From Streptomyces sp. LS1784 (lineage in GTDB: Bacteria > Actinomycetota > Actinomycetes > Streptomycetales > Streptomycetaceae): a DNA stretch of 36,845 bases. A model generated the notes under the pieces. That model searched no databases, was not told where the DNA came from, and saw nothing but the letters and a program-made list of their open reading frames with translations. The translations under genes and the position numbers were made by a program. Positions 1 to 31,993 of this stretch are shown one piece after another (position 1 is the first letter of the stretch; every line of letters starts with the position of its first letter). The stretch lies in NCBI RefSeq assembly GCF_020103755.1, contig NZ_JAHSQD010000024.1, positions 1 through 36,845 of the forward strand, given 5' to 3'.

Positions 1-1205
1 AAAGTGGCGGCATGCCACCGATCAGTCTTGAGGAGCCGTCAGGGCGCTACTTGTCGTTCGCCGAGCGCGAGGAGATCGCGTTGCTGCGCGCCCGGGAATG
101 CGGGGTACGGGAGATCGCCCGCCATCTGGGGCGGGCGCCCTCGACGGTCTCGCGTGAGTTGCGGCGCAACGCGGCCACCCGGGGCGGGCGCCTGGATTAT
201 CGGGCCTCGGTCGCGCAGTGGCACTGCGACCGGCAGGCCGGCCGTCCCAAACCGTGCAAGCTCGTCGAGCAGGACGAGTTGCGGCAGTATGTGCAGGATC
301 GGCTGTCCGGCAAGGTCACCGGCCCGGACGGCATGCCGGTGCCCGGTCCGCAGACGAGCTGGAAGGGGCGGAACAAGCCCCGGCGCCAGGACCGACGCTG
401 GGCGACGGCGTGGGGCCCGGAGCAGATCGCCCGACGCCTCCCGCTCGACTTCCCCGAGGACGAGACCATGCGTATCTCCCCCGAAGCGATCTACCAGGCC
501 CTGTATGTCCAGGGCCGTGGCGGGCTCAAGCGGGAGCTCACGGCCTGCCTGCGCACCGGCCGGGCGCTGCGGGTCCCCCGAGCCCGGACTCAGGGCCGCG
601 GCAAGCAGTTCGTCACCGAGGACGTGCTGATCAGCCAGCGGCCCGCCGAGGCCCAGGACCGGGCTGTGCCCGGGCACTGGGAGGGTGACCTCATCATCGG
701 CCTGAACAGGTCCGCGATCGGCACGCTGGTCGAGCGCACCACCCGCTTCACGATGCTGCTGCACCTTCCACCGATGGAAGGCCACGGCGGTCCACGCTCC
801 AAGAACGGCCCAGCCCTGGCCGGTCACGGCGCCGAGGCCGTCCGCGATGCCATCGCCGCCACGATCACGACCCTCCCCGAGCAACTGCGCAGGTCACTGA
901 CCTGGGACCAGGGCTCGGAGATGGCCCAGCACGTCCAACTGCGCATCGACGCCGGCCTGCAGATCTACTTCGCCGACCCACACTCACCCTGGCAGCGCGG
1001 CACCAACGAGAACACGAATGGCCTGCTGCGGCAGTACTTCCCCAAAGGCACCGACCTCAGCAGGCACAGCCGTGGCAACCTTGACGCTGTCGCCGCGGCG
1101 CTCAACAGTCGCCCTCGCAAGACCCTGGGGTGGAGGACGCCCGCCGAAGTCCTCAACGAGAAGCTACTGTTGATCCAAGAGGGCGGTGTTGCAACGACTG
1201 GTTGA
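1..1205 (+). CDS. IS30-family transposase, 5' end outside window
   Basis: DDE transposase that cuts and joins IS30 ends. The first Met in the window (12) is internal: the frame is open to the left edge, and the second copy at 12.7-13.1 kb has 66 more residues before the equivalent Met. Counted from that Met, residues about 15-55 form the helix-turn-helix (AEREEIALLRA...VREIARHLGRAPSTVSREL). The catalytic triad is visible as D226 (HWEGDLIIG), D299 (TWDQGSE) and E333 (GTNENTNG), with the D-33-E spacing of the IS30 family. The C terminus ends in GVATTG as usual for actinobacterial members. The element's right terminal repeat lies at about 1185-1208 and it sits inside an IS3 transposase gene. The part in view looks intact. 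Confidence 0.93.
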   Translation, partial: SGGMPPISLEEPSGRYLSFAEREEIALLRARECGVREIARHLGRAPSTVSRELRRNAATRGGRLDYRASVAQWHCDRQAGRPKPCKLVEQDELRQYVQDRLSGKVTGPDGMPVPGPQTSWKGRNKPRRQDRRWATAWGPEQIARRLPLDFPEDETMRISPEAIYQALYVQGRGGLKRELTACLRTGRALRVPRARTQGRGKQFVTEDVLISQRPAEAQDRAVPGHWEGDLIIGLNRSAIGTLVERTTRFTMLLHLPPMEGHGGPRSKNGPALAGHGAEAVRDAIAATITTLPEQLRRSLTWDQGSEMAQHVQLRIDAGLQIYFADPHSPWQRGTNENTNGLLRQYFPKGTDLSRHSRGNLDAVAAALNSRPRKTLGWRTPAEVLNEKLLLIQEGGVATTG

Positions 1206-5101: not shown

Positions 5102-6628
5102 TCAGGCTGCGCTGGCTGCGGCCCATGCCTGCTGGACGGCGCGGATTTCCTCATCTGTGGGTCTGCCTGGGCTGTTGGGCGTAAATCGGGCGGCGATGAT
5201 GACCCGGCGGAGCTTGGCGACCATGTCGGACAGGGACGGGTCAGCCTTGGTGGTGTACCAGGGGGCGCGTTCGCGGTGCTCGGCGGCGTCGGCGGGATGG
5301 TGGCCGTGCAGCGCGTACCAGACCACGGTGATCGTGTAGCAGTACAGGCTGAACGGGACAGTGCGTTCGACCGCGTGGCGGGTGCGGCTTTGGGCCTGGC
5401 CGGCACCGAAGAGGTCGCGGGCCTCGGCGAAGGTGACCTCGATCGGCCAGCACCACGCGTACCGGGTGACCAAATCCGGCAGTGGCGTGTCCAGGTCGGT
5501 GGTGACCAGGGCCAGGTCGTAGCCGCTGACGGTGTCCTCGTCGCGCAGGAGCACGATCTGGACGGTGCGGGTGTGGAACGAGCCGTACCACAGGCAGGTC
5601 GTCGCGGTCAGGTGGACGGTCTCGGTGCGCTGGTAGCGCGTGACCGTGGCGGTGGTGAAGTCAGCGGTGTCGGCCAGGTCCTTGGCGGTGCCCAGCCGCT
5701 GGCCCTTCAGGGCGGGTCGGCCGCGGCGCCCGGTGGGTGGTGGGGCCAGGTCGTACAGCACCGCCGAGGCGGGAAGCCGAGTGGTGAACGTGCAGGTCGA
5801 GGGCAGAGCGCGGAGCGCCTTGCCGTGGTAGGCGGCGTCCGCGACGACGTGGATGTGCCGTCCGTCGTGGCAGGCGGCCAGCAGGCGGATCATGGACGCG
5901 GCGAGGCCGGCCTTGGACTGCTCCTGTTTCGGGCGCCACAGCCGGGCCATCACCGGCAGGCACACCGGCCGTGCCAGGAACGGCAGTTGAACCACGATGC
6001 CGACCACCACGAAGCAGGTTCCGCGCCCGACCGGTCTGGAACCCCTGGCCGCGCCGTCGTGCTGCCAGGCCGCGCCGAACACCTTCTTCCCGCCAGGGCC
6101 GTTGCAAAGTCCGGCTCGGTCGAGCCGGGCTGACTGCCCGCACGCCGGCCCGAGTGGCTGCGCGGGCAGGTCAGAACGTCTCTCGCAGTCGAGAGAGAAC
6201 TGATGCCATGTCAGATCTTCCCGGAAGTGCAGTCTGGGTAAGCCGCCGTGAGCTGCGGCGATGCCGCAGCTCAATGACTTTGCAACAACCCTGTTCTTCC
6301 CGCGCCGCTTGAACAGCGTGTCGTCCACCGTCACGGTCAGCACCGCGCCCTCGGACAGCAGGCGGCGAACGACCAGATGGGACAGGGCAATGCCCAGGAG
6401 GTCCGGCTTCCAGGTTACGCGGGAGAAGAAGGCGTGGGCGCGGTCGTGGGACCAGGTGCGCGTCAACCCCGCGCCGAGGAGTATCCCGGTCACCGTGCAC
6501 CGTCCCGTCTGCGCGATCAGCCCCGTGACCAGCGCAGCGAAGGTTTGGAAGGTCGGCGCGGTGAAGCAACCACGCACCAACTCCAACACGGCGAGCAGCG
6601 AAGCGGGTACGGTCGGATCCGGAAGCAT
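5102..6628 (-). CDS. IS701-family transposase with 70-codon in-frame insertion
   Basis: Start at 6628 fits family members (MLPDPTVPASLLAVLELVRG) and has GGGA upstream. The DDE domain begins with LTVTVDDTLFKRRGK; later parts include IHVVADAAYHGKAL and WCWPIEVTFAEARDLFG. The protein should read FKRRGKKVFGAAWQHDG, but after RRGK come 70 foreign residues encoded by the MITE and duplicated target, then GKKVFGAAW resumes. The insertion adds exactly 210 bases and no stop codon, so the frame stays open at 508 residues. It separates the first catalytic Asp from the rest of the core and probably abolishes activity. Confidence 0.85.
   Translation of the reverse strand: MLPDPTVPASLLAVLELVRGCFTAPTFQTFAALVTGLIAQTGRCTVTGILLGAGLTRTWSHDRAHAFFSRVTWKPDLLGIALSHLVVRRLLSEGAVLTVTVDDTLFKRRGKNRVVAKSLSCGIAAAHGGLPRLHFREDLTWHQFSLDCERRSDLPAQPLGPACGQSARLDRAGLCNGPGGKKVFGAAWQHDGAARGSRPVGRGTCFVVVGIVVQLPFLARPVCLPVMARLWRPKQEQSKAGLAASMIRLLAACHDGRHIHVVADAAYHGKALRALPSTCTFTTRLPASAVLYDLAPPPTGRRGRPALKGQRLGTAKDLADTADFTTATVTRYQRTETVHLTATTCLWYGSFHTRTVQIVLLRDEDTVSGYDLALVTTDLDTPLPDLVTRYAWCWPIEVTFAEARDLFGAGQAQSRTRHAVERTVPFSLYCYTITVVWYALHGHHPADAAEHRERAPWYTTKADPSLSDMVAKLRRVIIAARFTPNSPGRPTDEEIRAVQQAWAAASAA
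6094..6293. mobile_element. 200-bp MITE, ISAs1-like ends
   Basis: Terminal inverted repeats of 18 bp with 16 matches: CAGGGCCGTTGCAAAGTC at 6094-6111 and the complement of CAGGGTTGTTGCAAAGTC at 6276-6293. It is flanked on both sides by the 10-bp direct repeat TTCTTCCCGC (6084-6093, 6294-6303), the target duplication. Too short to encode a transposase. CAGGG ends with 8-10 bp duplications are characteristic of the ISAs1 family, so an ISAs1 element probably mobilises it. A 9-bp-arm hairpin (GAGCTGCGG-CGATG-CCGCAGCTC) lies near the right end. Confidence 0.9.
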
Positions 6629-6850
6629 CGGCGGGTCCCTCACAGCAGACGACGCAAGCACCGCCGATGCTTCTCCGCTGTCGCCAGCCAAAGCGGCCAG
6701 ATGACGCCACATCACCCACCCGAGCGACCCACACGACGATCAACAAAAACGTCAAAAGTCGAGTTCATTATCGTCCGGCCGGAACCATGGCGAACACCGA
6801 CTCCGGGACCTTCGAAGCATCAACGCTGGATCGCCATACGGAGGTTCACC

Positions 6851-14201: not shown

Positions 14202-15623
14202 GTGTCCAGTGTGGTCCATGCAGCCGCTCATCGGTCGGCATTGGCTGAACTGTCCTCCTTTCGGATGGAGTTGTATGAGGCGATGCCCAGCCGCGCGGAT
14301 GCATTGTTCGAGCTGGTGGATGCGGTGCTGTGTGCCGCGGGGCCTGTGGTGTCGCTCCCGGAGTTGAGTTTGGAGGCGGTGCACCGGCGCGGGCGCGGGG
14401 CCATGTACGACGCCCTGGCGAACGGCCGGATCGATATCGGACGACTGCAACTTGCGTTGGCCGGGCTGGAGTTGCCGCGCGGAGCGGACCGGCAGCTGTC
14501 GATCGCGGTGGATGTGACGCCCTGGCCGCGACCCGACGCTGAATGCTCACCACAGCGACTGCACTGCTACCGGCCATGCCGCTGCGACGGCGTCCGGCAG
14601 ACGATCCCGGGCTGGCCGTACCAGGTCGCCGCCGCGCTGGGCGGTGGCCGCTCCTCGTGGACCGGGGTCCTCGATGCGGTCCGTATAGGCCCCGATGACG
14701 ATCCGACCGAGGTCACCGCCGCCCAGATCCACGACCTGCTGGAACGACTTCGCAAGGCCGGGCAGTGGCGCGAGGGCGACCCCAAGGTGTTGTTCGTCCT
14801 GGACTCCGGCTACGACGTCGTGCGCCTGACCTGGCTCCTGCGCGATGAGCCGGTGCGACTGCTGGGGCGGATCCGCGCGGACCGGGTCATGCGCCACCCG
14901 GCCGGCCGCCGCAAAGGACCCACGCCCGGCCGGCAACCCCGCCATGGCGAGGAATTCCGGCTGGCCGATGCGGCCACGCATCCGTCACCAGTCCAGGAGT
15001 CGGCCACCCGCCATGACCGGTTCGGCACCGTGACCGCCCGCTGCTGGGGACGTCTCCACCCGAAACTGGAACGCCGCCAGGGCGGCTGGGCCAACCACGA
15101 TGGTGAACTCCCCATCGTTGAAGGAACATTGGTCCATCTGGCGGTCGAGCACCTACCCGGGAACCGGGACCCCAAGCCGTTGTGGCTGTGGCATTCGGTC
15201 CCCGACGCCGCCGCCCATGACGTCGACCGTCTCTGGCGGATCTTCCTGCGTCGTTTCGACCTCGAGCACACGTTCCGCTTCCTCAAGCAGACCCTCGGCC
15301 TGACCCGGCCCCGCCTGCGGCACCCGGAGCAGGCCGACCGCTGGGTCTGGCTGGTCCTGACCGCCTACACCCAGCTCCGCCTCGCCCGGCCCCTCTCCGC
15401 CGACCTCCGCCGTCCCTGGGAGAAACCCCTCACCCCCGACCTGCTCACCCCGGGCCGGGTCCGCCGCGGCTATCACCGGATCCGGCGGCTCATCGGCACT
15501 CCGGCCAGGACGCCGAAAGCCGCCCGTCCCGGACCCGGCCGCCCCCAGGGCCGCACCTCCACCCCCGCACCCCGCCATCCCGTCGGCAAGAACCAGCAGA
15601 AAAAGGACAACCCCTCGGCCTGA
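14202..15623 (+). CDS. NF041680-family putative transposase (IS701-like DDE)
   Basis: 473 residues, full-length and uninterrupted. GTG at 14202 has GGGAGG upstream. DDE-type landmarks: SIAVDVTPWPRPDAEC (first Asp), KVLFVLDSGYDVVRLTWLL (second Asp) and RRFDLEHTFRFLKQTLGLTR (Glu helix), the latter typical of the IS701/IS4-like fold. The C-terminal 60 residues are basic and Pro-rich. A hairpin overlaps the stop codon. It is the only transposase gene seen complete and undamaged in the window, so this element may still move. Confidence 0.88.
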   Translation: MSSVVHAAAHRSALAELSSFRMELYEAMPSRADALFELVDAVLCAAGPVVSLPELSLEAVHRRGRGAMYDALANGRIDIGRLQLALAGLELPRGADRQLSIAVDVTPWPRPDAECSPQRLHCYRPCRCDGVRQTIPGWPYQVAAALGGGRSSWTGVLDAVRIGPDDDPTEVTAAQIHDLLERLRKAGQWREGDPKVLFVLDSGYDVVRLTWLLRDEPVRLLGRIRADRVMRHPAGRRKGPTPGRQPRHGEEFRLADAATHPSPVQESATRHDRFGTVTARCWGRLHPKLERRQGGWANHDGELPIVEGTLVHLAVEHLPGNRDPKPLWLWHSVPDAAAHDVDRLWRIFLRRFDLEHTFRFLKQTLGLTRPRLRHPEQADRWVWLVLTAYTQLRLARPLSADLRRPWEKPLTPDLLTPGRVRRGYHRIRRLIGTPARTPKAARPGPGRPQGRTSTPAPRHPVGKNQQKKDNPSA

Positions 15624-23650: not shown

Positions 23651-24559
23651 TCAGGAGCCGTTGCCGCAGCTCGAACCACAACTTGTCCCGCAGCCCAACG
23701 CACAACCGGTCCCGCAGCTCGCGCCGCTGTAGCTGCCACCGCCGATGCCGCGGGTGGTGCCGGCGCGCTTGCGGGCCCGAGCCCGGGAGGCTTCGAGGCA
23801 GATCCGCAGGGCATGGTCCACCGGCAGAGCCGACAGCCCGGCCAGGGCCACGGCCATCGGCCCGTGCTCGCGACGGTCGACCGTGGGCCCGTGCTCGCGA
23901 CGGTCGGCCGCCCGGGCTTCGGAGAGTACGCGGGAGCCGAGCGAGGTGTACCGGTCCCGGGCTTCCCAGGGCGGCTCCACGAGATAGTTGACCAACAGGG
24001 CCACCGCGAACAGCACGGGGAAAGCCACCAGTGGGAAAAGCCAGTTGTCGTGCCGCACGAGCGTGAACACGAATGCGGCCACACCCGCCACGGCCACCGC
24101 GCCGGACGCCACGGGCGTCCAACCGTAGGCCAGCCACATCCGGTCGACCAACTCACGGTCGTTGAGTAGGCCCGCGACCGCCAGTCGGCTGCGCAGGGCC
24201 TGCGCCGGCGGGTCGTAGTCCACCCATGTGATCAGCTTCCCCATGTCACCGGTGCGGGTGGGGCCGAGGCGGCGCACGACCTCCGCCTCGAAGCCGTCCT
24301 CCGGGCAGGCGAGGGCCGTGGTCGCGGTGACGTCCCCCGTACGGGAGACGACGATCCGGCCCGCCTCGTACATTTCCAAGAGCTTCAACTCCGCCAGGTG
24401 GTGTGCCAGACAGGCGAGTTCCTCTAGTCCGAGGTCGAACTCCCGTCCCGCCGCCAGCCGTTCGGCCCGGTTCAGCCCACGCGCCTTGGCCCGGAAATTG
24501 AGCCAGGCCGCGGCCAGTCCCATACCCGTCCCTGCCAGCAGGACCAGTACCACCCACAT
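23651..24559 (-). CDS. TIGR04222-domain membrane protein
   Basis: 302 residues; ATG 24559 with AGGGGG upstream. N-terminal helix (MWVVLVLLAGTGMGLAAAWL) followed by the family core (DLGLEELACLAHHLAELKLL ...GRIVVSRTGDVTATT). Two further helices at about 148-190 (SGAVAVAGVAAFVFTLVR, LFPLVAFPVLFAVALLVNYL). The tail is typical: Gly-Cys-rich GASCGTGCALGCGTSCGSSC. A 27-bp tandem duplication gives DRREHGPTV DRREHGPMA. Function unknown for the family. Confidence 0.85.
   Translation of the reverse strand: MWVVLVLLAGTGMGLAAAWLNFRAKARGLNRAERLAAGREFDLGLEELACLAHHLAELKLLEMYEAGRIVVSRTGDVTATTALACPEDGFEAEVVRRLGPTRTGDMGKLITWVDYDPPAQALRSRLAVAGLLNDRELVDRMWLAYGWTPVASGAVAVAGVAAFVFTLVRHDNWLFPLVAFPVLFAVALLVNYLVEPPWEARDRYTSLGSRVLSEARAADRREHGPTVDRREHGPMAVALAGLSALPVDHALRICLEASRARARKRAGTTRGIGGGSYSGASCGTGCALGCGTSCGSSCGNGS
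23859..23906. repeat. 27-bp tandem duplication in TIGR04222 gene
   Basis: GGCCCGTGCTCGCGACGGTC occurs at 23859 and again at 23886, an in-frame duplication of nine codons in the cytoplasmic loop region. Confidence 0.8.
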
Positions 24560-25189: not shown

Positions 25190-26116
25190 TCAGTGCAGGA
25201 CGGTCCGCGGGGTGGCGGGGACGGGCGCGAGCCGGTAGGCGTTCTCGTGGGTAACCACGAGGCCGGCGGTGGGCGGTGCGAAGTGCGTGCCGAGGACCAG
25301 GGTGTCCGTGTCGGCGAGGGAGCCGAGCAGCTTGCGGCGCGAGGCCTCGGACTGCGCCGGGTCGATGTCGACGCAGGCGCCGATGGCGGGGTGGGCGAAC
25401 TGGACCGGGTGGTGGATGCAGTCGCCGGTGATCAGCGCCGTCTCCCCCTGGCTGGTCAGCTCGACGGCGATGTGGCCGGGGGTGTGACCGGGCGTGGGCA
25501 GCAGGCGCAGGCCCGGGGCGATCTCGACACCCTCGGCTGGGACGTCGACGAGGTCGAGCAGCCGTGCCTCCTCGACCGGGACCACGGAGTCGCGGAACAT
25601 GTGCCTGCGTGCCTCCTCCATGTCGTACGTGGCCCAGAACTCCCGCTCGGCGCGGGATGTGACGTAGCGGGCGTTGGGGAAGGTGGGGACCCACTCGCCA
25701 TTCACCTCCTGCGTGTTCCAGCCGACGTGGTCGGCGTGCAGGTGGGTGAGGATCACCAGATCGACGGAGTCCGGGTGGAAGCCGGCAGCGGTGAGGCGCT
25801 CGAGAAAGTCGGTCCGCAGGTTGTGCCACGCCGGGTTGGCCCGCTCCTTGCCGTTGCCGATGCCGGTGTCGACGAGGATGCGCAGCCCGCCGACGGTGAA
25901 GGCGAAGCTGTGGCTGTCGATGTGCAGGATGCCCTCGTGGTCGGCGAAGTCAGGTTGCAGCCAGTCCTGGTGCTTGACCACGTCCGTGGTGGCGTTCGGC
26001 AGCAGCCAGGGGCCGGTCGCGGGCGGCAGGAGGACCTCGTCGATGCGGTGGACGGTGACAGCGCCCACGGCCCAGGAGGGGATGGCGGTGGTCTGGCCGG
26101 TCGGTGAAGCGTTCAT
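25190..26116 (-). CDS. MBL-fold metallo-hydrolase (lactonase-like)
   Basis: 308 residues. Zinc motif H125-L-H127-A-D129-H130 (VILTHLHADHVGW), then the later ligands in LLPTPGHTPGHIAVE and ALITGDCIHHP. The N-terminal layout (VHRIDEVLLPPATGPWLLPN, HSFAFTVGGLRILVDTGIGN) matches the quorum-quenching lactonase/AttM-like branch and related hydrolases. It acts in the cytoplasm (no signal). Thirty bases downstream of the MFS gene on the same strand, so one operon, divergent from the amidase genes. Likely opens a lactone or other ester in a substrate handled by this cluster; the actual substrate is not visible. Confidence 0.88.
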   Translation of the reverse strand: MNASPTGQTTAIPSWAVGAVTVHRIDEVLLPPATGPWLLPNATTDVVKHQDWLQPDFADHEGILHIDSHSFAFTVGGLRILVDTGIGNGKERANPAWHNLRTDFLERLTAAGFHPDSVDLVILTHLHADHVGWNTQEVNGEWVPTFPNARYVTSRAEREFWATYDMEEARRHMFRDSVVPVEEARLLDLVDVPAEGVEIAPGLRLLPTPGHTPGHIAVELTSQGETALITGDCIHHPVQFAHPAIGACVDIDPAQSEASRRKLLGSLADTDTLVLGTHFAPPTAGLVVTHENAYRLAPVPATPRTVLH

Positions 26117-26146
26117 GGTCCGTCGTTCCTTTGTTGTTCGGTGGTT

Positions 26147-27397
26147 TCAGCGGAGGTGGCCGTCTGTGATGCGGAGTGCCTTGCGTCCGGAGGCGGTGAG
26201 TGCTGCCGCCGCCGCGACGGCGAGGAGTGCGGCGGCCACGGCGTAGGCGAGGGAAGCAGTCCGCAGTCCGAAGTGTTGGGCGGCGGCGCCCGTGGCGATG
26301 GCGGGCAGGCTCATGGACAGGTAGCTGAGGACGTAATAGGCGGCCAGGGTCGCGGCGCGGTCCCCTTCGTCGAACGAGGCGAGCATCATGCGGAGCGCGC
26401 CTTGGGAGACAGCGCCGAAGGCGATGCCGGCCAGGGCCGCGCCGCCGTAGACGGCGGTCAGGCTGGCGTTGTGCAGACCGAGCAGGCTCAGGGCCGTGGA
26501 GGGGATGACCACCAGGGTTCCGCCGGTGGCGGCGGCGAGCGGTGCGGTCCTGCGCAGCCTCCACACGGTGAGCGCGGCCCCGGCACTGACAACGAAGAAG
26601 ACCATCCCGGCAAACACGTGCGGGGCGCCGGGGGCGACCAGGCGTACGAGCGCCGGTCCGAGGGAGGAGTAGAAGCCGCCCAGCGCCCAGACGGCGGCGA
26701 CTCCGGTGCCGGCTGCCAGCAGGGCGCGGCGCGCCGAGGGCGGCACGGCGAGCCGCGGACGCAGGGAGCGCAGCGCGCCAGGGTGTGGGTGGGCCGTCTC
26801 CGGCGTCAGGATGACCGCGATCGTCTGGGCGGCGAAGAGTGCCGCCAGGACTACGTACACGGTGGCCGTGGGAGCCGGAACGAAGCGCACGAGCAGGGTG
26901 GAGACCAGTACGCCGGCCGACATGCCGACGATTGGGGCGATGCTGTTGGCCAGGGCGGACCGGCCGGGACGCCGGGGGTCCTCAAGGTCGAGGAGGGCGG
27001 CGCCCGCGGCGCTGGTGGCGGCGCCCGTGGCCGCCCCTTGCAGGATGCGGGCGGCGATGAGCGGTCCGGCGCCGTCCGCCGAGGCCAGCAGCAGCATGGA
27101 GGCTGCCTCCAGGACCAGGGCACCCATCAGGACGGGCCGCCGCCCCAGGTGGTCGGAGAGCCCTCCGACGATGAGCAGGGCCACCAGCAGCGTCAGGGAG
27201 TAGGCGCTGAAGACCACCGTGATCGTCAGGGCGGTCAGGCCCCATTGGTCCTGGTACAGGGGGTACAGCGGCGTCGGCGCACTGGAGGCGGCCAGGAGGA
27301 GGGCGACGATCGACACGTCGAGGGCGAAGGAGGCCGCGCGGGTGCGGGCTGCGGGGCACAGGCATTGCGCTGCCGCGTCTGACGTGGCGTTGGACAT
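26147..27397 (-). CDS. MFS transporter
   Basis: 416 residues with about 12 membrane helices. The signature between TM2 and TM3 is GGLSDHLGRRPVLMGALVLE. Other helices include FALDVSIVALLLAASSAPTP, VFSAYSLTLLVALLIVGGLS, AGMVFFVVSAGAALTVWRL. No long loops. ATG 27397 lies 30 bases from an AT-rich region holding TTTGCTTTAA-type sites, so it is probably repressed by the TetR gene at 29206. It could import the substrate of the hydrolases or expel a toxic form. Confidence 0.9.
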   Translation of the reverse strand: MSNATSDAAAQCLCPAARTRAASFALDVSIVALLLAASSAPTPLYPLYQDQWGLTALTITVVFSAYSLTLLVALLIVGGLSDHLGRRPVLMGALVLEAASMLLLASADGAGPLIAARILQGAATGAATSAAGAALLDLEDPRRPGRSALANSIAPIVGMSAGVLVSTLLVRFVPAPTATVYVVLAALFAAQTIAVILTPETAHPHPGALRSLRPRLAVPPSARRALLAAGTGVAAVWALGGFYSSLGPALVRLVAPGAPHVFAGMVFFVVSAGAALTVWRLRRTAPLAAATGGTLVVIPSTALSLLGLHNASLTAVYGGAALAGIAFGAVSQGALRMMLASFDEGDRAATLAAYYVLSYLSMSLPAIATGAAAQHFGLRTASLAYAVAAALLAVAAAAALTASGRKALRITDGHLR

Positions 27398-27424
27398 GGA
27401 AACCCTCCCGCTAAACGCAATTGG

Positions 27425-27467
27425 TTTGCTTTAATCCACGGTAGGCCCTAGTGTCAGCTAAAGCAAA
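27425..27467. promoter_or_regulatory. Divergent promoter with inverted TTTGCTTT motif
   Basis: GTTTGCTTTAA (motif at 27425-27434) and its complement-type CTAAAGCAAAC (27458-27468) form 9-bp inverted arms about 25 bases apart between the MFS and AtzG-like genes. TTTGCTTTAA recurs at 29187-29196 directly before the TetR gene. This is the likely operator region for both divergent operons. Confidence 0.65.
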
Positions 27468-27538
27468 CTGTTAGCTTTTGGCGCGGAGAGTTGCCCGAGG
27501 CTGCTTCGTTGCTCCAGTCCGATCAGGAGAGAACGTTC

Positions 27539-27748
27539 ATGTCCGCTGCCGAACTCACGCCATCGGAGGCGGCCCGCTGGGCCGACCGCGCCGGGCTCCC
27601 ACTGCCGGCCGACCGGCTCGCCGCGGTGGCCGCCACCGCCAACCACATCCAGTCCGTCGTCGCGATCCTGCGGGAACTGGACTTCGGAGACACCCCGCCT
27701 GCCGCCGCCTACCGCGCCGGAGAGGAGAAGAACGATGCAGCCGTATGA
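27539..27748 (+). CDS. AtzG-like small amidase subunit (DUF4089)
   Basis: 69 residues; ATG 27539 preceded by AGGAGA. SAAELTPSEAARWADRAGLP, AATANHIQSVVAILRELDFG, DTPPAAAYRAG: two helices and an extended tail as in AtzG, the GatC-like partner of the carboxybiuret hydrolase AtzE. It overlaps the amidase start by 14 bases, fitting a stable two-subunit enzyme. The small partner probably stabilises the amidase and lies along its surface. Confidence 0.8.
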   Translation: MSAAELTPSEAARWADRAGLPLPADRLAAVAATANHIQSVVAILRELDFGDTPPAAAYRAGEEKNDAAV

Positions 27749-29123
27749 ACTGTCCATCGCCGCAGCCGCTGACGCGATCCGGGCGCGAAAGCTGTCCCCC
27801 GTCGAGCTGGTGGACTCCGTCCTCGACCGCCTCGAGCAGGTGGAGCGGCACCTTCAGGCATACGTCACCGTCGCGGCGGAGGAGGCCCGCCGGGCGGCGC
27901 GCGAGGCTGAGCAGGATGTCGCAGCCGGCCGTCTGCACGGCCCGTTGCACGGCATCCCCATGGGGCTGAAAGACCTGATCGACGTCGCCGGCGCGGCCAC
28001 CACGGCCAGCTCCCGGGTCCGGGCGGACCACCGCGCCGAGGCCGACAGCACGGTCGCCGCCCGCCTGGCCGCGGCCGGTGCGGTCCTGCTCGGCAAGACG
28101 CACACCCATGAGTTCGCCTACGGTCTGACCACCCCGCAGACCCACAACGCCTGGGATCGGGGCCGGGTCGCCGGCGGCTCCAGCGGCGGTTCCGCCGTCG
28201 CCGTCGCCGCGGGCGCCGCGACCTTCGCTCTGGGCACCGACACCGGCGGATCGATCCGGGTGCCCTCCGCGCTCAACGGAGTCGTCGGCCTCAAGCCGAC
28301 CTACGGCCTCGTCCCCCGCCACGGTGTGACGTCCCTGTCCTGGTCGCTGGACCACGTGGGCCCGATCACCCGCACCGTGGAGGACGCCGCCCTGGTCCTG
28401 TCCGTCCTGGCCGGCCACGATCCCCGCGACCCCGCCTCCCTGGTCACCGCCGGCCCGGACTACCGGCCCGGCGGCGCCACGGAACTGACGGGCCTGCGCA
28501 TCGGCGTGCCGCGCAACTACTACTTCGACCACGTCGACCCTGAGGTGGAGGCCGCCGTCCGGCTCGCCACAGCCGAGCTCGAGAGCCTCGGAGCGCAGCT
28601 CGTCGAGGTCGAGATCCCGATGACGCGCTACATCCAGGCCACCCAGTGGGGCCTGATGGTGCCGGAGGCCACCGCCTACCACGAGCGCACCGTGCGCGCC
28701 GTCCCCGAGCTGTACCAGGCTGACGTGCGGATCCTTCTCGAAGTCGGCGAGCTGATGCCGGCCGGGGACTACCTGCGCGCCCAGCGCTCGCGCACCCTCA
28801 TGCAGCAGGCCTGGGCCCGCCTGCTGGAGGAGGTCGACGTGATCGCCGCCCCGACGGTCCCGGCCACTGCGGTGAAGGCGGACGACGAGTCGATCACCTG
28901 GCCGGACGGCACCGTCGAGGGGGTCTCCGACGCCTACGTACGCCTCTCCGCCCCCGCCAACATCACCGGGGTGCCCTCGCTGTCCGTCCCGGTCGGCCAC
29001 GACACGACAGGCCTGCCCATCGGCATGCAGCTGCTCGGCCGCCCCCTCGGGGAGCCGGTGCTGCTGCGGGTCGGTCACGCCTACGAGCAGACCCGGCCCG
29101 CACGCCGGCTGGCAGCGGTGTGA
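27735..29123 (+). CDS. Amidase-signature hydrolase, AtzE-like
   Basis: 462 residues, full-length. Catalytic triad of the amidase signature family visible: K79 (MGLKDLID), cis-Ser 149 (AGGSSGGSAVAVAAG) and nucleophile S173 (GTDTGGSIRVPS). N-terminal ELSIAAAADAIRARKLSPVE and the C-terminal end PSLSVPVGHDTTGLPIGMQL are family-typical. With the AtzG-like gene in front it belongs to the AtzE/GatA type, hydrolysing a small amide or carboxyurea. No cyanuric-acid hydrolase is nearby, so the substrate need not be carboxybiuret. Same operon as AtzG-like; TetR gene follows. Confidence 0.9.
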   Translation: MQPYELSIAAAADAIRARKLSPVELVDSVLDRLEQVERHLQAYVTVAAEEARRAAREAEQDVAAGRLHGPLHGIPMGLKDLIDVAGAATTASSRVRADHRAEADSTVAARLAAAGAVLLGKTHTHEFAYGLTTPQTHNAWDRGRVAGGSSGGSAVAVAAGAATFALGTDTGGSIRVPSALNGVVGLKPTYGLVPRHGVTSLSWSLDHVGPITRTVEDAALVLSVLAGHDPRDPASLVTAGPDYRPGGATELTGLRIGVPRNYYFDHVDPEVEAAVRLATAELESLGAQLVEVEIPMTRYIQATQWGLMVPEATAYHERTVRAVPELYQADVRILLEVGELMPAGDYLRAQRSRTLMQQAWARLLEEVDVIAAPTVPATAVKADDESITWPDGTVEGVSDAYVRLSAPANITGVPSLSVPVGHDTTGLPIGMQLLGRPLGEPVLLRVGHAYEQTRPARRLAAV

Positions 29124-29173
29124 CGAACCGACGGAGTGGCTCCGGCCGCACCGGCCGGGGCCAGGACGAGCGC

Positions 29174-29196
29174 TTGAAGCAGCATATTTGCTTTAA
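29174..29196. promoter_or_regulatory. Putative operator before TetR gene
   Basis: TTGAAGCA-7 bases-TGCTTTAA is a dyad with 7 of 8 matches, nine bases before the ATG. The right half belongs to TTTGCTTTAA, which also stands at 27425-27434. Autoregulation by the TetR protein is the simplest reading. Confidence 0.65.
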
Positions 29197-29205
29197 GGTG
29201 GTTCC

Positions 29206-29772
29206 ATGAGCCGAAAGACCATGGTGCGTCCCGGTGGGCGCAGCGCCAGGGTGCAGGCGTCGGTGCACGCCGCCGTGCGCGAACTCGAGGCGGAGGTGGG
29301 CCGCGAAGCCCTCACGGTACCCCTGGTGGCCACCCGCGCCGGAGTCACCCCGTCCACGATCTACCGTCGCTGGGGCGACCTGCAGGAGCTGCTGTCGGAC
29401 GTGGCGGTCGAGCGTCTGCGGCCCGAGACGGCGCCGGAGGACAAGGGAAGCCTCAGGTCCGACCTTGAGGCCTGGGCCGAGCAGTTCCTGGAGGAGATGT
29501 CCGTCCCCACGGGCCGCGCCTACATCCGCGACGCCCTGCTCGGCGACCCGGACGGCACCAACGCCGGCCAGTGCTCGGCCTACGCGGCCGAGCAGATCGA
29601 CGTCATCCTCGACCGCGCGGTCGGCCGCGAGGAGAACGCACCCGACGTCGAGACAGTCCTCGACCGCGTCGTCGCCCCCATGATGTACCGCATCCTCTTT
29701 CGTCCGGAGGGGCTCGACACCGCGTACGCGCGTCGGTTGGTGGTCGGGCTCGTCGGGTCGAACGATCGCTGA
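29206..29772 (+). CDS. TetR-family regulator of the amidase cluster
   Basis: 188 residues. DNA-binding domain at about 15-62 (VHAAVRELEAEVGREALTVP LVATRAGVTPSTIYRRWGDL), then a helical ligand domain (SDLEAWAEQFLEEMSVPTGR, LDRVVAPMMYRILFRPEGLD) of the common TetR_C_16-like type. Motif TTTGCTTTAA lies before this gene and before the AtzG/MFS promoters, so it probably represses all three units and is released by a substrate of the pathway. Confidence 0.9.
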   Translation: MSRKTMVRPGGRSARVQASVHAAVRELEAEVGREALTVPLVATRAGVTPSTIYRRWGDLQELLSDVAVERLRPETAPEDKGSLRSDLEAWAEQFLEEMSVPTGRAYIRDALLGDPDGTNAGQCSAYAAEQIDVILDRAVGREENAPDVETVLDRVVAPMMYRILFRPEGLDTAYARRLVVGLVGSNDR

Positions 29773-30577: not shown

Positions 30578-31993
30578 CTACTGCGGGGTGGGGGCGGTCA
30601 GCGGGGCGAAGGTCTGCCGGAGGTCGACGACCGTGGTCGGGCCCTTCACCCAGGCGAGCGGGGCATGGTGCACCCGGACCCCGGCCGGTTCCCGGAGCAG
30701 CGCTTCGCCGGCCGCGTTCTGCGGCCATTCCACTGAGCCGGTGGCGGTCCGCGCGGGGATGAGCCAGTAGTCGCCCCGGGTGTATTCGCCGCCCGGTCGG
30801 AAGTACACCTGGACGCCGTCCTCCAGGTCGAGCCAGGCGCCCTCCTGGAGCTGCAGGGCGCCGCCGGCCAGCGGCAGGGCGTCCCGGCCGCGGGGCGCCC
30901 GGTGGTCCCAGCGGCGCAGGAACGGGTGGCGCTCGGCCAGCCGCCCGACCTCCGGCACCGGTTCGGCGGACAGCCGCACCCGGCGCCCCGGCAGGTCGGT
31001 CTCCTCCACCTGGAGCAGGTTCGCCGCCTCGCCCCGGCTGACGTACGCGCTGTCCGCGACCTCGACCCAGTCGCCGACCGAGAGGCTGAGCTTGTCGTCG
31101 TCGCCCAGCGTGGTGAGGTCGACCCAGACGCCCTCGATCGAGGCGATCGGCAGGACGACCGAGCCGTTCTCCCGGGACCACTTGAACGTGGCGCAGCCCT
31201 CCGCCGAGCCGCCGTGGTGGACCTCCACCCGGTACAGCTGGTTCTCCGGACCCCGGTAGCCGGCCTCGGGGTGGGCCAGGCACGGTTCCTCGCTCGCCCG
31301 CTCCGGCCGCCGGGCGCGCGCGGCCAGCAGCCCGCCCGGCCGCTCGTGCGGCTCGGCCCACGCGTCGAAGGCCTCCCTCACCCGGGACGCCCCGCCGTCC
31401 GGAACACTCAACTCCGAGGCGGGCAGGGCGAGTACCTGCCAGACGAGCTTGGCCCGGGCCGCCGTGTCGGGCATCGCCGTACCGAGCGCGACCTCGCGGA
31501 TCTCCGGGTCCTCGACGGCGATGACGCTGCGCTCCCAGACCTTCAGGTAGACCAGGAACGGGAATTCGCCGGGCAGCCGGTCGCCGTCGCGCTCCTGGTC
31601 CCGGTAGGCGTCCGGCTGGTCCCAGTACGTCCAGCCGGCGGGCGCCTCCCGGGCGTCGCTGCCGTTGCCCTGGCCGCCGTCGTCGGGCACGGCGATGCCG
31701 GGCTCGGGCCGGTCGGCCTCGCACAGGATGCCGTCCACGTAGTAGCGGCCGCCGCCGATGGTGAGGTCGTCCACGTCGTGGTTGCCCGGCACGTAGCCGA
31801 TGGCGAATCCGGCCGCCGCGGCCGGTCCGCCGCGGCGGCCGATCAGGTCGGCGGCGAGCGCGCGCAGCTGGTACCGCTCGATCGCGGCCTGCTCGTTGGC
31901 GTCGGCGTCGAGCTGGACCCGGCCCTGCTGGGTCAGCACCGCGGAGTAGTGCTTGCCGGGCCGGAAGGTCAGGCGCGAGAAGTCTGCGTGCAC
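30578..31993 (-). CDS. DUF6519 phage-tail-like protein
   Basis: 471 residues from GTG 31993 with AAAGGGAAA upstream. The N terminus HADFSRLTFRPGKHYSAVLT QQGRVQLDADANEQ is the hallmark of DUF6519. It is followed by a beta-rich middle (FKWSRENGSVVLPIASIEGV, WVDLTTLGDDDKLSLSVGDW) and the region GEYTRGDYWLIPARTATGSV EWP. Such proteins accompany baseplate and tail proteins in contractile injection and tail-like loci of actinobacteria and may form part of the baseplate or fibre. Last gene of the operon, followed by a hairpin. Confidence 0.85.
   Translation of the reverse strand: MHADFSRLTFRPGKHYSAVLTQQGRVQLDADANEQAAIERYQLRALAADLIGRRGGPAAAAGFAIGYVPGNHDVDDLTIGGGRYYVDGILCEADRPEPGIAVPDDGGQGNGSDAREAPAGWTYWDQPDAYRDQERDGDRLPGEFPFLVYLKVWERSVIAVEDPEIREVALGTAMPDTAARAKLVWQVLALPASELSVPDGGASRVREAFDAWAEPHERPGGLLAARARRPERASEEPCLAHPEAGYRGPENQLYRVEVHHGGSAEGCATFKWSRENGSVVLPIASIEGVWVDLTTLGDDDKLSLSVGDWVEVADSAYVSRGEAANLLQVEETDLPGRRVRLSAEPVPEVGRLAERHPFLRRWDHRAPRGRDALPLAGGALQLQEGAWLDLEDGVQVYFRPGGEYTRGDYWLIPARTATGSVEWPQNAAGEALLREPAGVRVHHAPLAWVKGPTTVVDLRQTFAPLTAPTPQ

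Follow-up and report, generated by a model that had tools for sequence, protein, structure and literature searches.

An amidase pair, an MBL-fold hydrolase and a TetR regulator linked by a conserved palindrome in Streptomyces sp. LS1784

What common task might unite an amidase pair, a metallo-β-lactamase (MBL)-fold hydrolase, a major facilitator superfamily (MFS) transporter and a TetR-family regulator whose genes lie side by side in Streptomyces sp. LS1784? The question arose in the stretch of 36,845 nucleotides analysed here (contig NZ_JAHSQD010000024.1 of assembly GCF_020103755.1, positions 1 to 36,845; hereafter the window), where a preliminary description had seen a possible new catabolic unit with overlapping AtzG-like and AtzE-like genes facing an MFS/MBL operon. 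All five open reading frames were recovered where that description had placed them. The minus strand encodes the MBL-fold hydrolase (25190–26116, 308 aa; Lactamase_B, 4.5e-22 in Pfam) and a drug-antiporter-like MFS transporter (26147–27397, 416 aa; MFS_1, 3.2e-22), and these face three plus-strand genes: an AtzG/GatC-like small subunit recognised by comparing its family profile with GatC (27539–27748, 69 aa, with an ATG preceded by AGGAG), an amidase-signature (AS) enzyme (27735–29123, 462 aa; Amidase, 5.9e-121) and the regulator (29206–29772, 188 aa; TetR_N and TetR_C_11). The AtzG-like and amidase genes overlap by 14 bases (27735–27748). From the computed gene calls, operator conservation, co-occurrence, catalytic residues and amidase tree pattern, we assign a probability of about 0.6 to a TetR-controlled module whose induced enzymes hydrolyse, in two steps, a small amide that also carries a lactone or an ester, export being optional.

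A palindrome before the module's genes

The sequence TTTGCTTTAA occurs exactly twice in the window, at 27425–27434 and 29187–29196, against 0.00 occurrences expected from 100 dinucleotide shuffles, which bears out the motifs reported earlier in the divergent promoter and in a dyad before the TetR gene. Both copies are half-sites of one 22-bp palindrome with the core AAAGC-N9-GCTTT, a relation that the preliminary description does not mention, and a third copy, likewise absent from it, lies at 27458–27480. This yields three candidate operators, listed without a strand: O1 (27412–27434), which lies 14 bp upstream of the MFS start codon and is kept in relatives; O2 (27458–27480), 46 bp from O1 and upstream of the AtzG-like gene; and O3 (29173–29197), upstream of tetR, where it would probably serve autoregulation. 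Searching the window for WAAMGC-N9-GCTTTW with at most one mismatch returned 3 places, counted as 6 strand hits, where the expectation was 0.06. Across the whole 9.56-Mb assembly (9,558,242 bases in 1294 contigs), matches to the 22-base pattern, again allowing one mismatch, were confined to O1, O2 and O3, and the reversed pattern, used as a control, gave 0.

We then collected 80 related loci, ranked highest by amidase similarity among at least 546 relatives, which together with the window gave 81 loci and 1,016,351 bases. At a cut-off of at least 9 of 10 core bases, 163 of the 165 core matches fall inside module promoters. At least one site is present in 61 of the 63 loci with a divergent promoter and two sites in 44, and the spacing between the paired sites is 46–48 bp in every one of these 44. 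The site before tetR is less conserved than those of the divergent promoter: it was detected before 29 of 58 downstream tetR genes when 9 of 10 core bases had to match and before 56 of 58 when 8 of 10 sufficed, a looser cut made without a control. Where tetR-proximal sites were detected, 29 of 33 lie 30–31 bp from the start of the TetR alignment.

Because these loci had been picked by amidase similarity, 70 genomes of the genus were surveyed with the counts redone starting from each gene separately. The operator pattern gave 161 strand hits and the control 4, totals that were summed from a per-genome table and in which a palindrome is often counted on both strands. Specifically, the operator was found in all 33 genomes that carry the TetR gene and in 5 of the 37 that do not, with one hit each (Fisher 5e-15, a value that ignores phylogeny). 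Given this distribution, the palindrome is apparently the operator of a dedicated TetR regulon, with binding suggested by conservation, and its placement before both the regulator's own gene and the target genes is that of a TetR-type local repressor. At the level of sequence, the shared motif of the earlier proposal behaves as the operator of this TetR.

Two further observations concern single genomes. In genome G027, a perfect operator match away from the module (L141:4815–4836) covers part of the predicted start region of a cytochrome P450 gene, which could be an additional regulon member but, as a single case, is perhaps due to chance. In genome G018, contig C2 carries two equal-scoring TetR copies with identical operator sequences near 13.3 kb and 746.7 kb of its 749.8 kb, perhaps in the terminal repeats of a linear replicon.

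Conservation, modularity and movement of the gene set

Among the 81 loci, the AtzG-like gene is present in 81 (one partial, at a contig end), the MBL gene in 78 (of the three loci without it, L022 and L047 are contigs that start at the AtzG gene) and a TetR gene upstream or directly downstream in 75. A full-length MFS gene is present in 32; of the other 49, three show a partial match and some are cut by contig ends. The MBL gene is divergent from the amidase pair in 63 loci and colinear with it in 15. No gene family flanking the module is common to more than 10 of the 81 loci; the gene calls behind flanking families, variants and split loci come from a crude caller that merged or missed some reading frames. 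Freely varying neighbours, which would have spoken against a functional unit, are therefore not what the core displays, and the survey sustains a conserved core of MBL, AtzG-like and TetR genes next to the amidase; the idea of a fixed five-gene set did not hold, since the MFS gene is often absent and the MBL and AtzE-like genes also occur separately.

The genus survey, in which partners were counted within 6 kb, recovered 26 AtzE-like copies in 25 genomes, 32 MBL copies in 32 and 37 TetR copies in 33. TetR was the most constant partner, lying near 22 of the 26 AtzE-like and 25 of the 32 MBL copies, and MBL and AtzE-like genes were neighbours in 18 cases (18/26 and 18/32, respectively). Seven of the 37 TetR copies had neither enzyme gene nearby, at least two of them owing to a nearby contig end. 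The presence and absence of the module genes are associated (Fisher p 1e-7 to 5e-12, again ignoring phylogeny), and the amidase has a patchy distribution, being present in 25 of the 70 genomes.

The regulon is modular: MBL, AtzG–AtzE and MFS are each absent or apart in some genomes. Variants consist of TetR with MBL alone, with MFS or with AtzGE, and amidase-less cassettes comprise TetR and MFS (L120) or TetR, MFS and MBL (L135, L146). Three modules are split, with operators retained at both parts: in G060 (L125) the MBL and amidase genes lie about 7 kb apart, in G034 (L137/L138) the parts are on two contigs, and in G039 (L120/L140) the MBL gene reads in two frames on another contig than tetR and MFS. 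On a Roseibium (alphaproteobacterial) plasmid, TetR (53% identical), MFS (41%), amidase (53%) and a small GatC-like gene occur without MBL, and a core operator match lies between tetR and MFS. A plasmid of Kitasatospora sp. NBC_00039 (L087) has TetR (83%), MFS and MBL without an amidase, and a core operator match before tetR. Incomplete or interrupted frames were seen in two loci: only 148 amidase residues lie between MBL and tetR in genome G001 (L133:6036–6539), where three operator sites occur, and the MFS gene of a colinear module in Streptomyces hiroshimensis (L017:3492–4610) reads with one internal stop.

Trees of the MBL, TetR and amidase proteins were compared under midpoint rooting for the 71 of 81 loci in which all three were long enough. 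In all three trees the 14 colinear loci cluster as a single group, on stems of 0.43 for MBL, 0.58 for TetR and 0.085 for the amidase, and the distance from colinear to divergent loci relative to the divergent loci's own spread is 2.2 for both MBL and TetR and 0.95 for the amidase. The colinear amidases group with 11 divergent loci (support 99/92) and fall inside the divergent loci, a nesting that depends on the midpoint root; the MBL bootstrap had not settled. Picking loci by amidase similarity could exaggerate the contrast seen in the amidase tree; the looser genus survey likewise finds colinear-module amidases at 77–83% identity. Most simply, a transfer of the amidase pair probably took place between two old, diverged TetR–MBL cassettes, and such a move argues that the MBL and amidase functions belong together.

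The enzymes, the transporter and the surrounding window

The MBL protein has a di-metal lactonase-type site, H125xH127xD129H130~H211~D232~H278, with an additional histidine, H235, three residues after the second aspartate (D+3). A histidine at this position is common to LrsL, AidC and MomL according to the passages of PMC9441902 that treat these enzymes, and the spacing of the metal site is close to that of LrsL. All seven metal ligands and H235, and hence the complete AidC/LrsL-type site, are kept in 71 of 71 aligned rows. The closest folds to the structure model (pLDDT 90.7) are methyl parathion hydrolase (MPH), LrsL, PoOPH, AbOPH and AidC, with Z of 30–32 at 22–27% identity, and AiiA, GcL and pyridoxolactonase are farther away, at Z of 21–23. 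The enzyme resembles the MPH/AidC/LrsL lactonase group and is a putative lactonase. Membership in the NCBIfam equivalogs of N-acyl homoserine lactone (AHL) lactonases was rejected, the scores against the cut-offs being 94/360 bits for AidB, 68/425 for YtnP, 47/390 for AttM and 43/375 for AiiA. Distant MBL relatives (40–43% identical) on four plasmids sit among varied genes and offer no common substrate clue.

The amidase retains the catalytic residues K79-S149-S173 in 71 of 71 aligned rows. The "AtzEG-like" label given to the pair stands as regards layout, the gene for a small GatC-like subunit lying next to that for an AS amidase; it does not extend to AtzE family membership, which the curated models reject (TIGR02715, 320 bits against 425.75; NF006631, 333 against 461). 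The small protein had no Pfam hit at 1e-3 and no match to a Pfam family of GatC or AtzG, phmmer returned nothing convincing, and a Foldseek search with the 69-aa model (pLDDT 77) found no useful fold match. When its family profile was compared with actinobacterial GatC by hhalign, the probability was 88% (E 3.1e-6 over 53 columns) with GatC rows that had full N-termini and 2.9% with rows that lacked them; in a profile search of the PDB, GatC chains were the best matches, weakly so (E 0.029). The transporter's best NCBIfam models are MdtL and Bcr/CflA, both far below cut-off. Since the MFS protein is drug-antiporter-like, detoxification is at least as likely as catabolism, so that the "catabolic unit" proposed earlier survives as a conserved unit beside one regulator and loses its preference for a catabolic role.

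The absence of cyanuric acid hydrolase and allophanate hydrolase noted earlier holds for the 16 window frames scanned with Pfam, although some of the ten frames in the second batch of that scan may be wrong frames. Neither AtzH, AtzD nor AtzF was found among the scanned frames, and in a scan of six proteins the sole match to allophanate-hydrolase models was the module amidase, below cut-off. Adjoining the module is a TIGR04222-domain membrane protein (23651–24559, minus strand) whose reading frame fell into none of the gene families of the related loci. On the other side lies a DUF6519 protein (30578–31993, minus strand; Pfam 4.8e-77), with two long same-strand frames beyond it that had no Pfam hit. 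Transposase-like frames elsewhere in the window (12–1202, plus strand, HTH_38 with a weak rve match; 5105–6715, minus strand, and 14202–15620, plus strand, both DDE_5) are fitting for a mobile region.

Possible substrates and known systems

In the preferred reading, TetR would occupy the three 22-bp operators and keep the MFS/MBL operon, the AtzG–AtzE-like operon and tetR itself silent. An inducer that enters the cell would release it, allowing the two hydrolases, plus the exporter in some strains, to be made. The MBL enzyme would then open the lactone (or ester) of one small xenobiotic, the GatC-like/AS-amidase pair would cleave the amide of the same molecule or of a breakdown product, and the MFS protein, where present, would expel the compound. 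Repression and induction, action on one molecule, export and the substrate class are the parts of this scheme that we infer. AHLs are our tentative leading candidate for a specific substrate, since these molecules combine one lactone with one amide and enzymes of both kinds attack them. The broader proposal, a widespread actinobacterial quorum-quenching regulon that cuts AHLs or similar lactone-amide signals at both bonds, with TetR as sensor, an optional pump and an amidase pair passed between cassettes, is speculative and should be regarded as unlikely.

Several observations weigh against the scheme or against its AHL version. In the genus survey, 14 of 32 MBL copies lack a nearby AtzE-like gene and 8 of 26 AtzE-like copies lack a nearby MBL gene, some through contig breaks; because each occurs without the other, the two enzymes need not share one molecule. 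A different TetR-type gene (TetR_C_1) adjoins the MBL operators in G049 (L139:3870–4781) and G039 (L140:5188–5961), so that the wiring there may differ and a second regulator may be involved. Amidase relatives outside the module, in G014 (62%) and on contig C2 of G019 (84%), have no TetR, MBL or operator nearby. Moreover, the MBL protein lies far below the AHL-lactonase cut-offs, with 94 of 360 bits for AidB; LibA and NylA, which are related to QsdB, fail to inactivate AHLs, as stated in a section of PMC3676327; and QsdR (4ZA6) was not among the 12 PDB matches listed for TetR at E ≤0.01.

Alternatively, the module could confer resistance to an antibiotic with an ester or lactone plus an amide, the MFS protein exporting the drug and the hydrolases inactivating it. 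The drug-antiporter best hits of the transporter (below cut-off), the TetR–MFS and TetR–MFS–MBL cassettes without an amidase and the patchy spread of the AtzE-like gene all fit this explanation, as does the Kitasatospora plasmid, on which the TetR, MFS and MBL genes have an ABC-type gene next to them and bls-type nucleoside-antibiotic genes only a few genes away. It accords less well with the 49 of 81 loci that lack a full-length MFS gene and with flanking families that recur in at most 10 loci, and we hold resistance to be a possible but rather unlikely role.

Another possible role is the scavenging of nitrogen or carbon: the source would be a primary amide or a compound derived from a nitrile, and MBL would attack an ester or lactone in it. 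Relatives of the amidase at 51–56% identity have nitrile hydratase genes as neighbours on two Rhodococcus pyridinivorans plasmids and, on an R. opacus plasmid, a gene of the nitrile-hydratase-beta type. This neighbourhood on three of four Rhodococcus plasmids points to primary amides rather than acyl-homoserines, and so also counts against AHLs as substrate. The R. koreensis relative has a permease in place of the nitrile hydratase. Against this role, no flanking family is widely recurrent beside the actinobacterial module (families were counted, not named one by one) and a drug-antiporter-like MFS would be unusual for uptake; scavenging seems doubtful. As an aside, the nitrile-hydratase-linked relatives are L082, L083 and L118, and that of L083 is directly preceded by a small gene whose alignment to the AtzG-like family reaches 29%.

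That the module detoxifies plant benzoxazolinones or other cyclic carbamates like them, as the fungal FDB1 cluster and bacterial BxdA do, appears improbable. In its favour, excerpts of PMC4726666 describe how 2-benzoxazolinone co-induces MBL1 (an MBL protein) and AMD1 (an AS amidase) in Fusarium FDB1, and those of PMC11297187 describe how BxdA, annotated as an AHL-lactonase-family protein, converts MBOA; AMD1, however, proved dispensable in the fungal cluster, and the main text on BxdA does not use the word amidase. That the genes are chance neighbours, with motif and synteny due to shared ancestry alone, is very hard to credit: gene order is inherited among close relatives and amidase similarity guided the choice of the 80 loci, but two architectures share the same members, operators persist at split sites as the flanks vary, the amidase tree has its own pattern, and operator and TetR occur together in Roseibium.

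The mapped candidate operators make the inducer, and hence the substrate, directly screenable with a reporter, and if the module does remove signals or plant toxins, it would represent an accessory function common among soil actinomycetes. Database records with the full module are annotated merely as amidase, MBL fold metallo-hydrolase, TetR and hypothetical protein, and no description of the gene set was found in the open-access literature searched. Each part has known kin; it is the combination and the operator-defined regulon that look undescribed in that literature.

Compared with the AidC/LrsL/MPH group, the module's MBL enzyme has the same fold and metal ligands and, like AidC, MomL and LrsL, a histidine at D+3, but its identity to them in the structural alignments is no more than 22–27%. 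The AtzG–AtzE pair of the cyanuric acid operon (atzDGEHF), in which AtzE is insoluble without AtzG as stated in an extract of PMC6219798, likewise has neighbouring genes for a small GatC-like subunit and an AS amidase; the module differs in an amidase that scores below the AtzE models and in its linkage to an MBL hydrolase and TetR. The module also suggests that AS amidases far removed from triazine metabolism can have GatC-like subunits as partners. Fusarium FDB1 (AMD1-DLH1-MBL1) also pairs an MBL hydrolase with an AS amidase, in its case co-induced by one xenobiotic, whereas it is fungal, has a dienelactone hydrolase and can dispense with its amidase; the likeness to MBL1 and BxdA is one of description in the excerpts of those two papers, not of sequence.

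The systems known to act on AHLs provide the remaining comparison. QsdA is a phosphotriesterase-like lactonase; the lactonase-like gene of the module is of the MBL fold, and no CoA ligase is found among the five genes, so that the qsd combination of a QsdA-type lactonase with the QsdC CoA ligase is absent here. QsdB, an AS-family enzyme that hydrolyses AHLs with a K-S-S triad, shares that triad with the module's amidase; it belongs to the NylA/LibA/OctHD sub-cluster, and the relevant section of PMC3676327 mentions no small subunit for it. The Rhodococcus erythropolis qsd system (QsdR-QsdA-QsdC), as outlined in part of PMC6262395, places an AHL lactonase operon under a TetR repressor, with a separate AHL amidase proposed to release the inducer. 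The module resembles it in the TetR control of a lactonase(-like) gene and in the involvement of an amidase; in qsd the amidase is encoded outside the operon and there is a CoA ligase, whereas the module brings together an MBL hydrolase, an AS amidase, a GatC-like subunit and an MFS transporter.

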